This document shows, one piece after another, positions 1-5,158 of a stretch of DNA of 41,968 bases (position 1 is its first letter; every line of letters starts with the position of its first letter). Origin of the DNA: an uncultured Candidatus Actinomarina sp. Lineage in GTDB: Bacteria > Actinomycetota > Acidimicrobiia > Actinomarinales > Actinomarinaceae. The stretch spans positions 1 through 41,968 of the forward strand of contig CACFFJ010000003.1 in the NCBI GenBank assembly GCA_902565645.1. The letters are read 5' to 3'. The notes below the pieces were generated by a model. It ran no database searches. It worked only from the letters and a program-made list of their open reading frames with translations, and was not told the DNA's origin. The position numbers and the translations under genes were made by a program.

Positions 1-104
1 GATTCCCCTTTCATTTCTGCTAAAGCTTGCTCTACCGAAATACCTAAAGCCTTTGCTCTTGCTTCAGCTGACCTTAAAAGTAAATGTTCTGGGATATCTA
101 CCAT
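1..104 (-). CDS. N-terminus of respiratory-complex subunit with RSAEARA module (partial)
   Basis: Only the first 34 codons lie in the window; the gene runs off the left edge. Its ATG (102-104) overlaps the stop codon of the cytochrome b gene as TAATG, so it is translationally coupled and is the last visible gene of the leftward operon. The visible peptide reads MVDIPEHLLLRSAEARAKAL and continues with GISVEQAL, which matches residues 15-38 of the cytochromes c at 3478 and 4229 (core RSAEARA, then G-x-S-V and an acidic residue). Because the upstream cytochrome b ends like cytochrome b6, the expected product here is the subunit IV-like and/or cytochrome c part of the complex, but that is inference from position. 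The module itself looks like a short helical interaction motif of unproven role. Confidence 0.75.
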   Translation of the reverse strand, partial: MVDIPEHLLLRSAEARAKALGISVEQALAEMKGE

Positions 105-880
105 TAGAGTGGTCCCGAAATGCCGCCATCTTTTCTAACCCTCCAAAAATGAATTGCCATGAATATAACAATTATGAATGGGAAAAATAATACATGGAGA
201 ACATAAAATCTCAATAGAGTAGCTGATGTAGCTTCTAAGCCAGCAAATAAAGCGAACTTAATTTGGGCGCCAAAAACTGGCGTGTAGCCTGCCATATTTC
301 CACCCACCGTTACTGCCCAAATAGCTAACTGATCCCAAGGTAAGAGGTAACCAGTAAATGATAAAAACAATGTAAGGAATAAAAGAATAACACCAATTAC
401 CCAATTAAATTCTCTAGGTGCTTTATATGCTCCATGATAAAAAACTCTAGACATATGAAGAAACACAACTAATACCATTAAGTGTGCTCCCCATCTATGC
501 ATATTCCTTACCAATGAACCAAAAGCGATACTGGTCTGTAGAGCTTCCATGTCAATATAGGCCAACTCGCCTGTTGGTCTGAAATAAAACATTAACCATA
601 TACCAGTAATTGTTAAAACAATAAATAAAAAGAAGCTAAGTCCACCTAAGCATAAGGTATACGAAAGTCTGATTCCATGTCTCTTTACTTTTACAGGGTG
701 TAAGTGATATAGAACATTATTCATTACAACATAAGCTCTATTTCTAGGACTATCAGAATATCCTTTTCTAAATGGTGAGCCTGGTCTGAATATACTTGAC
801 CAAAATTGACTACCTTTTAGTGAGTCTCCTAAACCTACTGCTGTATCTTTTATTCTTTCTCTAAAAGTAAGTTTTTGCAT
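104..880 (-). CDS. cytochrome b6-type cytochrome b, N-terminal (bis-heme) subunit
   Basis: This 258-residue membrane protein is the di-heme b core of a quinol:cytochrome c oxidoreductase. Heme ligand pairs are H128/H142 in NMHRWGAHLMVLVVFLHM and H229/H244 in the next helix pair. The 15-residue spacing of the second pair and the C-terminus ISGPL are typical of cytochrome b6 rather than of bc1 cytochrome b. Other b6 hallmarks are YRP-like FRPTGE (100-105), PRE-NWV (155-161) and LPWDQ (180-184). Cys77 in TLCLGG aligns with Cys35 of cytochrome b6, the residue that covalently holds heme ci. It lies 9 bp after the ferredoxin gene and overlaps the next gene. The split architecture means that helices E-G must be encoded by the truncated downstream gene. 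Confidence 0.93.
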   Translation of the reverse strand: MQKLTFRERIKDTAVGLGDSLKGSQFWSSIFRPGSPFRKGYSDSPRNRAYVVMNNVLYHLHPVKVKRHGIRLSYTLCLGGLSFFLFIVLTITGIWLMFYFRPTGELAYIDMEALQTSIAFGSLVRNMHRWGAHLMVLVVFLHMSRVFYHGAYKAPREFNWVIGVILLFLTLFLSFTGYLLPWDQLAIWAVTVGGNMAGYTPVFGAQIKFALFAGLEATSATLLRFYVLHVLFFPFIIVIFMAIHFWRVRKDGGISGPL

Positions 881-889
881 TATTTAATT

Positions 890-1339
890 CTATAGCCTTC
901 CATATATATAGCCGTGCCTATCATCTCTTGCTCCAGAGTCTTCTTCCCATGGAGCTGTATAGAGACCATTCTCAATTGCTTGGTCTGCTAGCGACCCTGC
1001 AAATTTGCCTAAAGTGATTACTCCTGTTGGGCACCTATCAACACAAAGAGCACAACGTGTACATGCGTCTTCATCAACAACAAAAAAACCTACTGCCCCT
1101 TCGCTCTCTTCTGGAGACTCAACATTTACTGAATCCTCTATTGCTTCATTAGATAAATAATGAATACATTTCCATGGACAAATATCTACACAGCCTTCAC
1201 ATAGAATGCACTCTGCTTCATCAATGTGTAAAAATTGTTTAGGTTTAACTCTTGAGGAAATTTTCTCAGCCTCAACCATTGCAAGGTTATACTTCTCTTC
1301 AAATTCTGGCATTTCAATTAAAACTTCTGACTTAGCCAT
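890..1339 (-). CDS. two-cluster 4Fe-4S ferredoxin-like respiratory subunit
   Basis: The 149-residue soluble protein carries two complete ferredoxin motifs: Cys44/47/50/54 (CILCEGCVDICP) and Cys93/96/99/103 (CTRCALCVDRCP), separated by an acidic insert of about 25 residues. It should bind two [4Fe-4S] clusters and pass electrons on the cytoplasmic face. No signal peptide or Tat motif is visible. It starts 8 bases inside the 3' end of the preceding membrane-protein gene and ends 9 bp before the cytochrome b gene, so it is part of that complex's operon. Where a Rieske protein would normally be encoded, this operon has this protein; a Rieske gene could still lie outside the window. The partner and electron direction are inferred. 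Confidence 0.88.
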   Translation of the reverse strand: MAKSEVLIEMPEFEEKYNLAMVEAEKISSRVKPKQFLHIDEAECILCEGCVDICPWKCIHYLSNEAIEDSVNVESPEESEGAVGFFVVDEDACTRCALCVDRCPTGVITLGKFAGSLADQAIENGLYTAPWEEDSGARDDRHGYIYGRL

Positions 1340-1925
1340 CTTGGTCTACCTTTACAACTTTCTTTCCGTAGTCTGATATTCTTGTTTTTCCTCTTTCTTT
1401 TGCATTGTTTAAATCTTGTATTAAATAACCACCAATAATGACAGTTACCAATGCTCCTTGAGAAATTCCTAGCTGAATTATATCTTTTAAAGCACCAAGA
1501 CTAAGTGAGATTTCATTACCTAAAAATAATATTGGAGGAAATTTTATAAACTCTCTCTGATTCGTCCATTCTAATGGACCCTGTGATAGGTTTAGCCATT
1601 CTGATGGAAGGACGCCAAATATTAAAGTTAACTGAATCCAGCTTAATAGAGCAAGGTAGGCTGCTCTTGTCCAGGTTAGTGGTGTATCTTGCCATGCTAA
1701 CATTGCCATACCAAGCAAAAATAATTGACCAGCACCAAAAGCAACAAGTTGACCAAAAGTTTGCATCAACCACCCTCTAGGCATCCAATTAAAGTAATCA
1801 ATAACTTCACCTTTGGGAAAGCCTGCAAAATGGGCAATTATTACACCTATGGTTATGCCTCCGATGCCCATAACAATAAGACTCGGGCCAATTTTATACC
1901 TATGCTTAAAAACAAAATTTATCAA
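1332..1925 (-). CDS. polytopic membrane subunit of cytochrome b operon, unknown family
   Basis: This 197-residue protein has about four to five hydrophobic segments (roughly 12-33, 55-77, 86-106, 135-170), joined by polar loops such as PSEWLNLSQGPLEW. I see no heme or metal motif that I can name. The start is TTG at 1923-1925, supported by a GAGG Shine-Dalgarno core at 1931-1934, five bases upstream. It is the first gene of the leftward operon and its 3' end overlaps the ferredoxin gene by 8 bases, so it is likely to be a membrane anchor for the ferredoxin-like subunit beside cytochrome b. This role is inferred from context. The transcript start should lie in the 156-bp spacer shared with the rightward oxidase-like operon. 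Confidence 0.8.
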   Translation of the reverse strand: MINFVFKHRYKIGPSLIVMGIGGITIGVIIAHFAGFPKGEVIDYFNWMPRGWLMQTFGQLVAFGAGQLFLLGMAMLAWQDTPLTWTRAAYLALLSWIQLTLIFGVLPSEWLNLSQGPLEWTNQREFIKFPPILFLGNEISLSLGALKDIIQLGISQGALVTVIIGGYLIQDLNNAKERGKTRISDYGKKVVKVDQDG

Positions 1926-2081: not shown

Positions 2082-3485
2082 ATGAAAATAAAATTAATAC
2101 CAAAAAACGAACAAGAACTTTCTAAGTTTTTCGTTTTATTTACCCCCTTATTGATTCTTTTAGCTGTAACAATAAGTTTATTAAAGGATTTTTATTTTCT
2201 TTTTTCTGGAGCTTTGCCTCACACTCGAATTTTCAATTATGGAGTCCTGGAGAAAATATCAAACCAAACTTCATATAATTTACTACTTGTTTTCATTTGT
2301 ATTTTTGCAACTGTCTATTTGTTGTCAAAATCAATAGGAAGAAGGCTGATATTATTTCCACTCTTTTTCTTGACATGTTTGGGGATAGTTGGTTTTGAAT
2401 CTATAGAAATTATCTTAGGATTGATATTCCCAAATGATATGTTTTCTTTTGGAAACACAACATACTTATTAATATTCAAACTGCTTTTGATGCTGGCTCT
2501 TCTAGGTTTAATTTTCCTAAACCTTCTAGCAAAAAAAGAAGCTTCATTATTTATCAGTAGCCAGTTTTTAATTGGAGCTATGGTATTTTATTGTCTTTCC
2601 CTTTTTGTTTATAGAAGTGACTATCAAGTAATTTCAGATAACTTTTTTATTAACTCTTTGTATGTCTCTTCCCATATATATGTAGGGTTTTCTTTTGTGT
2701 TTTTATCAATTTTATTTTTCTTAATGACAAAAGGTATAAATGCTACCTTATATAACAAAACCTTAAGCTCTATTACTTTTTGGGGATATTTGTTTTTACT
2801 ACCATGGACAAACTATAAATTTCATTACGGATCAGTGTTACCAAATTGGATTGAAAATGTATCTATATATCTCTCTCTGGGTTTAGCAATCCCCGCGCTA
2901 TCTTTGTTAGTTAATTACCTTAAAACTGTATCTACAAGAGATACAGAGAACCAGGTTATCTATGAACTAATAAACATTTCTTTTGTAGTCTTCTTTATTA
3001 CTAATATATTTCAGATAGTAAGTTCTCTTTCTAACTTAATCCCATTAGTAAGCGTTACAAGTTTTGAGAATGCTATTAGATATGGCTATATCTATAGTCT
3101 TGTGTTAATTGTTGTTCCTTTTGTCTACTATCTAATCCCAAGAATATTTGGAAGAGAAATTGTTCAAACAAAAATGGAATCTGCAAATAGTTTCTTGTTA
3201 AAATCAGTTATTCTTCTATCTCTTTTAGTCAACGGAATAATCGGAATAAATTCTGGTTACTCATGGAACGCTGGAGCAAATGCAGGAAACCCAACTATAT
3301 ACGGTGAAGGTTTCTTAATAACATGGTCTTTGGTGGGAACCCCGTACACAATAAACTTATTTCTTTCTTTGTTACTTCTTGTTGGAGTTTTCTTATTTTT
3401 CTTAACAACAATTAGAGCAATTTCTAGTGGTCCAATAACTGAAATTGAATCCGTAGAGCTTATTGAGGAGCAGGTAGATGAGTGA
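2082..3485 (+). CDS. degenerate CcoN-like (cbb3 oxidase subunit I-like) membrane protein
   Basis: The 467-residue, roughly 12-helix protein has the length and local sequence pattern of cbb3 oxidase subunit I. By eye, residues 197-216 (SHIYVGFSF and following), 222-260 (LYNKTLSSITFWGYLFLLPW, then FHYGSVLPNW) and 346-358 (YYLIPRIFGR) follow CcoN segments around the first CuB histidine, the second CuB site and the end of the heme-ligand helix. However, the whole protein contains only three histidines (47, 198, 248). The double-His CuB site reads NYKFHY, and the helix that should carry the heme b and b3 ligands (about 320-350) has none. It therefore cannot be a standard oxygen reductase. It overlaps the CcoO-like gene by 8 bases. 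Possible roles are a membrane scaffold for the two cytochromes c or a quinol/electron-transfer module. The homology call rests on recalled family sequence. Confidence 0.7.
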   Translation: MKIKLIPKNEQELSKFFVLFTPLLILLAVTISLLKDFYFLFSGALPHTRIFNYGVLEKISNQTSYNLLLVFICIFATVYLLSKSIGRRLILFPLFFLTCLGIVGFESIEIILGLIFPNDMFSFGNTTYLLIFKLLLMLALLGLIFLNLLAKKEASLFISSQFLIGAMVFYCLSLFVYRSDYQVISDNFFINSLYVSSHIYVGFSFVFLSILFFLMTKGINATLYNKTLSSITFWGYLFLLPWTNYKFHYGSVLPNWIENVSIYLSLGLAIPALSLLVNYLKTVSTRDTENQVIYELINISFVVFFITNIFQIVSSLSNLIPLVSVTSFENAIRYGYIYSLVLIVVPFVYYLIPRIFGREIVQTKMESANSFLLKSVILLSLLVNGIIGINSGYSWNAGANAGNPTIYGEGFLITWSLVGTPYTINLFLSLLLLVGVFLFFLTTIRAISSGPITEIESVELIEEQVDE

Positions 3486-3705
3486 GCTGTTAAGTAAAGT
3501 AGCTGAGATTCTAAAAGCTCCTGAAGAATTAGTTCAAAGATCGGCGGAAGCAAGAGCTGAAGCTTCAGGAAAATCCGTAGATGAAGTTTTACAATCATGG
3601 GCTGGCGGTGAAGCAATCGAGTCTAGTGCTCCTGTTGAAGCCACTACAGAAGAAGTTGTTGAAGAAGAAGTTGTTGAAGCCACTACAGAAGAAGTTGTTG
3701 AAGAA
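3477..3705 (+). repeat. 229-bp direct repeat, copy 1 (5' end of CcoO-like gene)
   Basis: Bases 3477-3705 match 4228-4456 with a single difference (C at 3606 versus T at 4357, synonymous in a glycine codon). The repeat starts exactly at the base before the ATG and covers the stop codon of the preceding gene, the RSAEARA module and the first part of the acidic linker. Within it a shorter unit encoding ATTEEVVEEEVVE recurs. Identity at synonymous sites points to a recent duplication or ongoing gene conversion. Confidence 0.95.
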
Positions 3706-4236
3706 GAAGTTGTTGAAGAAGAAGTTGTTGAAGAAGAACCGGTAGAAATGGAAAAAGAAAGTTCATTTGCCTTTATAGCAGGGGTTATTTCTGTAGCAAT
3801 CTTTACCTATATTTTCGCATTTTCTATTCCTAAGCAACAGAGCGAAACCTTGGTTGCAGATTCTTTAAATAATTCTTTTGAAATCACAAATGAAGCTTTA
3901 AAGGGTGCTGAAGTTTACAATCAATTGAATTGTCAATCTTGCCATACCCAAAATGTAAGAGTATTAATTCCTGACTCACAAAATGGAATTGTACTTAAAA
4001 ATAAATATGCTGATAAAGCAGTGATTTTAAACACAGGACTTGTAAGAATAGGTCCAGATCTTTCCAATTCAGCCTCTAGAGAGCCTACAAATAATAGTCA
4101 ATGGCTTTCTAGATATTTGAAAGACTCCTCTTCTGTCAGAGATACCATCCCTCACCCAAGCTATGATTTTCTTACCCAAGAGGATTTTGATAGCTTAATT
4201 ACATATTTACTATCTTTAGGAGAGTCTGATGAGTGA
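3478..4236 (+). CDS. CcoO-like membrane-anchored monoheme cytochrome c
   Basis: The 252-residue protein has four parts. Residues 1-48 carry the RSAEARA module, 50-92 form an acidic, repetitive VVEEE linker, 96-117 are a single transmembrane helix and 135-250 are a cytochrome c domain. The heme site is CQSCH (152-156). The following TQNVRV, the RIGPDL motif (190-195) and the PSYDFL stretch (227-232) parallel CcoO of cbb3 oxidases. Where CcoO has the axial Met before Pro-x-Tyr, this protein has His226 (IPHPSYDF), which suggests bis-His or altered coordination. It overlaps the CcoN-like gene by 8 bases and the next cytochrome gene by 8 bases, so the three are co-translated. The N-terminus is long and cytoplasmic before the anchor, which is unusual for a cytochrome c exported by its helix. 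Confidence 0.82.
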   Translation: MSELLSKVAEILKAPEELVQRSAEARAEASGKSVDEVLQSWAGGEAIESSAPVEATTEEVVEEEVVEATTEEVVEEEVVEEEVVEEEPVEMEKESSFAFIAGVISVAIFTYIFAFSIPKQQSETLVADSLNNSFEITNEALKGAEVYNQLNCQSCHTQNVRVLIPDSQNGIVLKNKYADKAVILNTGLVRIGPDLSNSASREPTNNSQWLSRYLKDSSSVRDTIPHPSYDFLTQEDFDSLITYLLSLGESDE

Positions 4237-4456
4237 GCTGTTAAGTAAAGTAGCTGAGATTCTAAAAGCTCCTGAAGAATTAGTTCAAAGATCGGCGGAA
4301 GCAAGAGCTGAAGCTTCAGGAAAATCCGTAGATGAAGTTTTACAATCATGGGCTGGTGGTGAAGCAATCGAGTCTAGTGCTCCTGTTGAAGCCACTACAG
4401 AAGAAGTTGTTGAAGAAGAAGTTGTTGAAGCCACTACAGAAGAAGTTGTTGAAGAA
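4228..4456 (+). repeat. 229-bp direct repeat, copy 2 (5' end of cytochrome c gene)
   Basis: This is the second copy of the 229-bp repeat described at 3477-3705, offset by 751 bases. Beyond 4456 the two linkers diverge at once (ETPVEEE here against EEVVEEE), and the cytochrome domains are unrelated at the base level. Confidence 0.95.
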
Positions 4457-5158
4457 ACCCCTGTTGAAGAAGAAGTTGTTGAAGAAGTTGTAGCTCCAGC
4501 AAATGTTAAGACTGTAGTAAAGAAAGTAGCAGTAATAAACAAGACAATGGGGATAAAGTTAAATGCAGAAACATCTCTTCCTGGTTGGTTGAATTTAAGC
4601 TTTATACTTATTCCACTATTTATCTTGATTGGAATGATAAACACATCCAATACACAAGAATGTGGAGTAAATGGTATTTTAAATGTTGATAGAAAATCAC
4701 AACAAACAGTTAACTGTGATGGCAGCCCTTTTGAAGGAAGAGGTGTAGCTTCTTCAACTATTAACTATGTTGCTTTAGGGCAGCAGGTTTACTCAGGTTC
4801 AGCTGCTTGTGCTGGTTGCCATGGTGCAAATGGTGGTGGTGGAGTTGGTCCAGCATTTATTGGAGGAGAACTTTATACCACCTTCCCTACTTGTTCAGAT
4901 CATGCAAAATGGATAGAACTTGGTTCAGCAGGTTGGCAAAATGAAGTTGGACCTACGTATGGAGCTGAAGACAAAGTTTCTATTGGTGGGATGCCTGCCT
5001 TTCAAGGAAAACTTAGTGAAGATGAAATATACGCGGTAGTTGTTTTTGAAAGAGTAGTTTTTGGCGGTGGTCAAACAGAGGAAGTACTTAGCGATTGCGG
5101 ACTGTTAGAAGAAGAGATTGAGGAGGAAACAGCAACTGAAGCTGCTGGAACTCCTTAA
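4229..5158 (+). CDS. membrane-anchored class I monoheme cytochrome c
   Basis: The 309-residue protein begins with the same module as its upstream neighbour (residues 1-76 are identical). A different linker follows, then one transmembrane helix (about 121-137), an extra domain with cysteines at 145 and 163, and a class I cytochrome c domain (about 180-285). The heme motif is CAGCH (194-198), and the axial Met is Met255 in GGMPAFQGKLSEDEI, the usual class I ending. Further cysteines at 222 and 290 could form a disulfide. The C-terminus is acidic. It overlaps the preceding gene by 8 bases. It probably receives or delivers electrons outside the membrane for the cytochrome b/CcoN-like assembly, acting as a tethered equivalent of a soluble cytochrome c. 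Confidence 0.88.
   Translation: MSELLSKVAEILKAPEELVQRSAEARAEASGKSVDEVLQSWAGGEAIESSAPVEATTEEVVEEEVVEATTEEVVEETPVEEEVVEEVVAPANVKTVVKKVAVINKTMGIKLNAETSLPGWLNLSFILIPLFILIGMINTSNTQECGVNGILNVDRKSQQTVNCDGSPFEGRGVASSTINYVALGQQVYSGSAACAGCHGANGGGGVGPAFIGGELYTTFPTCSDHAKWIELGSAGWQNEVGPTYGAEDKVSIGGMPAFQGKLSEDEIYAVVVFERVVFGGGQTEEVLSDCGLLEEEIEEETATEAAGTP

Follow-up and report, generated by a model that had tools for sequence, protein, structure and literature searches.

The DNA analysed here (the window, 41,968 nucleotides) comes from a Candidatus Actinomarina genome of the OCS155 cluster, class Acidimicrobiia, an abundant, streamlined marine actinobacterium. Three uninterrupted, in-frame open reading frames, here called CcoN*, CcoO* and CcoP*, lie at the locus, each overlapping its neighbour by 8 nt (Table 1). 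The second protein resembles CcoO and the third CcoP, with one CXXCH motif apiece, so that the intact, tightly coupled operon with two c-type cytochromes that had been proposed is borne out. The unit was found to extend further, the three genes being paired divergently with a bc operon that starts at 1925 on the minus strand.

Table 1. Genes and sequence features at the locus (positions in the window)
Feature	Position	Strand	Details
CcoN*	2082-3485	+	467 aa; homologue of cbb3 subunit I with 12 helices; ligands of haem b, haem b3 and CuB absent
CcoO*-like membrane-anchored c-type cytochrome	3478-4236	+	252 aa; N-terminal tag, acidic linker, TM helix
CcoO* haem site	CQSCH, residues 152-156	+	single haem
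CcoP*-like membrane-anchored monohaem cytochrome c	4229-5158	+	309 aa; N-terminal tag, TM helix, CAGCH
CcoP* axial Met candidate	in GGMPAF	+	sequence motif
CcoO* N-terminal tag domain, 47 residues	3478-3618	+	no Pfam family
CcoP* N-terminal tag	4229-4369	+	DNA nearly identical to CcoO* copy
C2, conserved membrane protein, first gene of divergent bc operon	1332-1925	-	
Ferredoxin, two 4Fe-4S motifs (8Fe)	890-1339	-	
Cytochrome b6	104-880	-	retains the four His of haem b and the Cys to which haem c_i is attached in b6f
Subunit IV, N-terminal tag part only	3-104	-	truncated at contig edge

The gene order in the divergent operon is C2, ferredoxin, cytochrome b6, subunit IV, Rieske protein, dihaem cytochrome c and a 122-aa membrane protein. 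The contig of the window stops inside subunit IV, and the remainder of this gene together with the last three genes starts contig C6 of the same genome. The split into cytochrome b6 and subunit IV, the Rieske protein and the haem c_i cysteine identify a bc complex of the b6f/b6c type. The nearest solved relative of the cytochrome b6 was that of b6f, with the haem c_i cysteine aligned. The presence of a ferredoxin beside such a cytochrome b6 hints that electrons may enter cytochrome b6 from ferredoxin, a route that has been discussed for cyclic electron flow in b6f. C2 gave no family in Pfam and no PDB fold match with Foldseek. After the bc operon, on contig C6 (L203), a gene for an SPFH/stomatin-like protein was observed that is conserved in the genus, and some relatives add an NfeD-like gene.

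The bc operon and the module were followed through 80 named Acidimicrobiia loci. In the available DNA, CcoN* was present in 44 of them, a CcoP*-type match without CcoN* in 30 and neither in 6, where a few of the CcoP*-type matches (L056, L110) may be the dihaem cytochrome. CcoN* was accompanied by CcoO* in most loci with a complete region. The genes for both parts of a bc-oxidase cluster are thus found together, and bc genes were also located within about 10 kb in at least three of five ligand-less CcoN loci from other classes of Actinomycetota. This synteny strongly supports the link with a cytochrome b complex that the original prediction had drawn. A ferredoxin gene adjoins cytochrome b6 in 79 of the 80 loci. 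One Actinomarina genome (G060, contigs C8 and C10) apparently has two copies of the bc and CcoNOP* cluster. Four records titled Bifidobacterium breve or Ferrithrix thermotolerans (L113, L119, L125, L084) carry clusters typical of other Acidimicrobiia and may be mislabelled MAGs.

As a single sequence, CcoN* matched COX1 in Pfam (E 1.4e-4), ccoN in NCBIfam (E 1.9e-10) and CcoN in the PDB (E about 1e-8) weakly, and the assignment to this family therefore needed testing. A family profile built from 39 relatives matched the cbb3 CcoN chains of the PDB from end to end (3mk7, E 5e-65; 9g83, E 3e-67), the sole further match being a chain named cytochrome c oxidase subunit I (7deg, 1e-4). With hhalign a value of 99.9% was obtained against Rhizobium CcoN across 453 columns. 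An AlphaFold2 model (pLDDT 87.3, pTM 0.90) contained the expected helices, and Foldseek ranked cbb3 CcoN first (TM about 0.86), followed by NOR and then by ba3/caa3/aa3 oxidases. CcoN* is unequivocally a full-length CcoN homologue that keeps the 12-helix fold. The suggested resemblance of the protein to CcoN was thereby confirmed; a profile search without an oxidase match or a different fold would have spoken against it, and both profile and fold were those of cbb3 subunit I. Against the NCBIfam ccoN equivalog cut-off of 583 bits CcoN* scored 40 bits, and ligand-bearing actinobacterial CcoN, at 246-307 bits, also stayed below it. This cut-off was rejected as proof of non-membership, since true actinobacterial CcoN fall short of it too. 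With the same model true CcoN scored 231-790 bits and the ligand-less proteins tested 40-196 bits.

Within this conserved fold, the residues that would hold the metals were found to be missing. Four CcoN from plasmid records (L164-L167, two annotated as ccoN and two unannotated) served as references for setting the ligand columns, and all of them retain the full set of seven residues, namely the six histidine ligands and the tyrosine of the His-Tyr cross-link (Tyr251 in P. stutzeri). CcoN* has histidines at 47, 198 and 248 only, and none of them is a metal ligand. Among 73 homologues from the class, the six ligand columns were without histidine save for one stray residue (L070), and the cross-link tyrosine was absent from all 73 as well as from CcoN*. 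The contexts in the alignment matched cleanly, for instance RLRPLHT in CcoN and RLRPAAM or RLxPxA in the relatives. The count of three histidines and the lack of histidine at the double-His CuB site and on the helix of the haem b and b3 ligands had been recognised correctly in the original prediction. Its placing of His198 on the first CuB ligand was reproduced in a pairwise phmmer alignment, where the residue falls on His207, but in the family alignment it lies two residues off. His198 is conserved within Actinomarina only and is absent outside the genus, and His248 aligns with a histidine of CcoN that is not a ligand (HHLHY). As His198 is off-column in the family alignment and His248 stands at a non-ligand position, the number of retained ligands is zero, and His198 as a kept CuB ligand was set aside as unsupported by that alignment. 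With regard to the cbb3 enzymes (C-family HCO), CcoN* thus has the fold and lacks the six histidines and the cross-link tyrosine.

Both states were detected in other classes of Actinomycetota, where all seven residues are present in five CcoN and missing altogether from five more. Including the references, nine CcoN with all seven residues served as controls, and no intermediates between ligand-less and true CcoN were seen among the sequences compared. In a survey of 149 Acidimicrobiia genomes the best ccoN score was 166 bits, and the protein concerned was without ligands; no genome reached the score range of true CcoN, the weaker matches having been read in part. CcoS (FixS) is a factor for the insertion of cofactors into cbb3. 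It was absent from all 14 ligand-less genomes tested and was found in four of five actinobacterial genomes with a true CcoN, in these four near CcoN by coordinates. CcoG as a second assembly marker was uninformative, since it was below the cut-off also in the genomes with true CcoN. At the level of sequence, the loss of oxygen chemistry in CcoN* is supported because the ligands are gone across the class and CcoS is absent, in agreement with the earlier view that oxygen reduction looks impossible.

The ligand-less and the true CcoN were separated by one branch in the tree (support 98/91, and 97/99 with the ligand columns masked), in which the root was assumed and Actinomarina sits on a long branch of unusual composition. 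This split is consistent with a single loss. Among 34 further genomes of the genus, mostly incomplete assemblies, 28 had an orthologue of CcoN*. In comparison with a relative from the same genus dN was 0.114 and dS was saturated near 2 (about 1.95), which indicates purifying selection on CcoN*. Judged from these comparisons, the loss of the ligands is old and stable and not a local decay. Near-invariant positions of the family (39 sequences) are occupied by G, W, P, F and T, and His, Cys, Met, Asp, Glu and Lys nowhere reach 90% conservation; this pattern suits a structural role. A docking platform would be expected to have its conserved residues clustered on the periplasmic face, but for CcoN* such clustering did not reach significance (p 0.11).

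The oxidase of the organism is a separate caa3, with a cytochrome c fused to CtaC. In a survey that covered the Pfam cytochrome c families, few c-type cytochromes were found in Actinomarina, namely the dihaem bc cytochrome, CcoO*, CcoP*, the CtaC of caa3 and one small lipoprotein-like cytochrome. The likeness of the second protein to CcoO around its haem was verified, as it has a CcoO-type haem domain, but with the axial methionine changed to histidine: His226 (IPHPSY, window 4153-4155) stands at the position of the axial Met of CcoO. The same change was seen in all Actinomarina examined (HPSY, HPNY or HPSV replacing MPSY) and recurs in several further lineages; it predicts bis-His ligation of the haem c. 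The axial Met is mostly kept in lineages in which CcoN and CcoO form one fused chain, and also in some with separate genes. A replacement of Met by His usually lowers the redox potential of a haem. With His226 and a potential lowered in this way, CcoO* would therefore fit poorly as a simple high-potential wire.

Subunit IV, CcoO* and CcoP* share an N-terminal domain of 47 residues for which no Pfam family was matched. Within the class this tag was found mainly in the present cluster and in one extra membrane protein. In the genome of the window the CcoO* and CcoP* copies differ by 1 mismatch in 200 nt, and between species the tags are 16-23% different. Near identity within a genome together with divergence between species suggests that the copies are homogenised by gene conversion; in two of the seven genomes compared they had diverged more. 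Several assemblies break near the CcoO*/CcoP* tag repeat.

On balance we regard it as probable that CcoNOP* is a cbb3-derived module in which a haem-free CcoN* acts as a scaffold that docks two c-type cytochromes on the bc complex. CcoN* would dock on this complex much as true CcoN does in bc1-cbb3 supercomplexes and would hold CcoO* and CcoP* at the outer face. Electrons could then pass from the Rieske protein and the dihaem cytochrome c to the haems of CcoP* and CcoO* and on to the caa3 oxidase, possibly with the participation of the small lipoprotein cytochrome c. The tag on subunit IV, CcoO* and CcoP* probably keeps these subunits together on the cytoplasmic side. The module would then be a fixed electron-transfer extension of complex III and not an oxidase. 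We infer the scaffold role, the route from bc through CcoP*/CcoO* to caa3 and the docking by the tags from the gene and sequence data above. Because part of the class has CcoP* without CcoN* and CcoO*, the module is dispensable for a working bc complex.

Several other roles were considered for CcoN*. Proton channels occur in HCO folds, and the emptied haem cavity of a fold that is retained without cofactors could now serve as a channel for ions, protons or small molecules, or as a quinone or lipid site, beside the bc complex. This seems unlikely, as no charged residue reaches 90% conservation in the family and the partners are cytochromes and not transport proteins. CcoN-CcoO also forms an assembly core in cbb3 biogenesis, and the pairing of CcoN* with CcoO* in most complete loci would agree with a platform or chaperone that inserts CcoO* and CcoP* into the membrane or the bc complex without being a permanent subunit. 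We consider such a role even less likely, since the fusion of CcoN and CcoO into one chain in several lineages (L046, L047, L134) suits a stable subunit. The original prediction had suggested a repurposed oxidase scaffold, for example a hub in the membrane for electron transfer between a cytochrome b complex and external acceptors. The degenerate scaffold and the link to a cytochrome b complex stood up, and two surface-exposed c-type cytochromes tied to the bc complex would suit export; the external acceptors, however, are quite improbable, as the few c-type cytochromes found with Pfam are explained by aerobic respiration. More improbable still is that CcoN* serves in sensing or detoxification, a role suggested for NnrS among other HCO homologues, with one haem bound through non-standard ligands. 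His198 might provide a ligand in Actinomarina, where it is conserved, but it is confined to this genus, no His, Met or Cys is conserved in the wider family and the Pfam search did not match NnrS. The idea of a gene in the course of decay, to which the weak similarity of the single sequence to CcoN might point, has practically no chance of being correct and was rejected, given the retention of CcoN* in 28 of 34 genomes despite streamlining and incomplete assemblies, a dN far below dS and the same state across the class.

Beyond the scaffold role of CcoNOP*, we would give even chances to a wider reading. Once and early in Actinomycetota, an HCO catalytic subunit would have been turned into a cofactor-free structural subunit of complex III with a pseudo-oxidase module, the His/Met ligation of CcoO changing to bis-His in many lineages, and this arrangement would be the norm for much of the class Acidimicrobiia, one of the smallest free-living ocean bacteria among them. 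The parts come from known families, but the literature searched contained no case in which a bc complex is paired with a C-family subunit I that lacks its ligands. No ligand-less CcoN was described in open-licence PMC literature on ligand-less or non-catalytic CcoN and on the oxidases of Acidimicrobiia and Actinomarinales. To our knowledge, the known proteins of the HCO superfamily bind at least one haem. If the reading is correct, a widespread lineage that is haem-free by its sequence would mean that the scaffold itself has value, and it would offer a natural control for non-catalytic roles of CcoN. For annotation pipelines, matches to CcoN or COX1 in Acidimicrobiia can be miscounted as high-affinity cbb3 oxidases; cbb3 oxidases have been reported in Acidimicrobiales MAGs (PMC8357290), whereas a CcoN with its ligands was encountered in none of the 149 genomes of the class surveyed here.

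Among known systems CcoNOP* resembles the cbb3 oxidases (CcoN-CcoO-CcoP) in the 12-helix fold, the full-length profile match, the N-O-P order and the CcoO-type haem domain. It differs from them in the absence of the ligands for haem b, haem b3 and CuB, of the cross-link tyrosine and of CcoS, in a CcoP-like partner with a single haem, in the frequent exchange of the axial Met of CcoO* for His and in the linkage to bc genes. The HCO-homology (HCOH) proteins, including NnrS, are likewise distant homologues of heme-copper oxidases outside respiration proper, and in most of those with three units, according to what Pei et al. reportedly found in 2014, two His remain as ligands of a single haem. CcoN* has no such pair, gave no NnrS match in the Pfam search and is closest to CcoN. 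The fused CcoNOP of Nitrospina is also an unusual C-family oxidase with subunit fusion, but unlike CcoN* it retains most of the haem b and CuB binding sites (PMC3578206). In the bc1-cbb3 supercomplex of Rhodobacter (PMC7876108) and the bcc-aa3 supercomplex of Actinobacteria a bc complex is tied to an oxidase. As judged from the genes, the present cluster similarly combines a bc complex with membrane-bound cytochromes c and a module shaped like an oxidase, whereas here the oxidase-shaped part, CcoN*, is without ligands for O2 reduction and the oxidase is a separate caa3.
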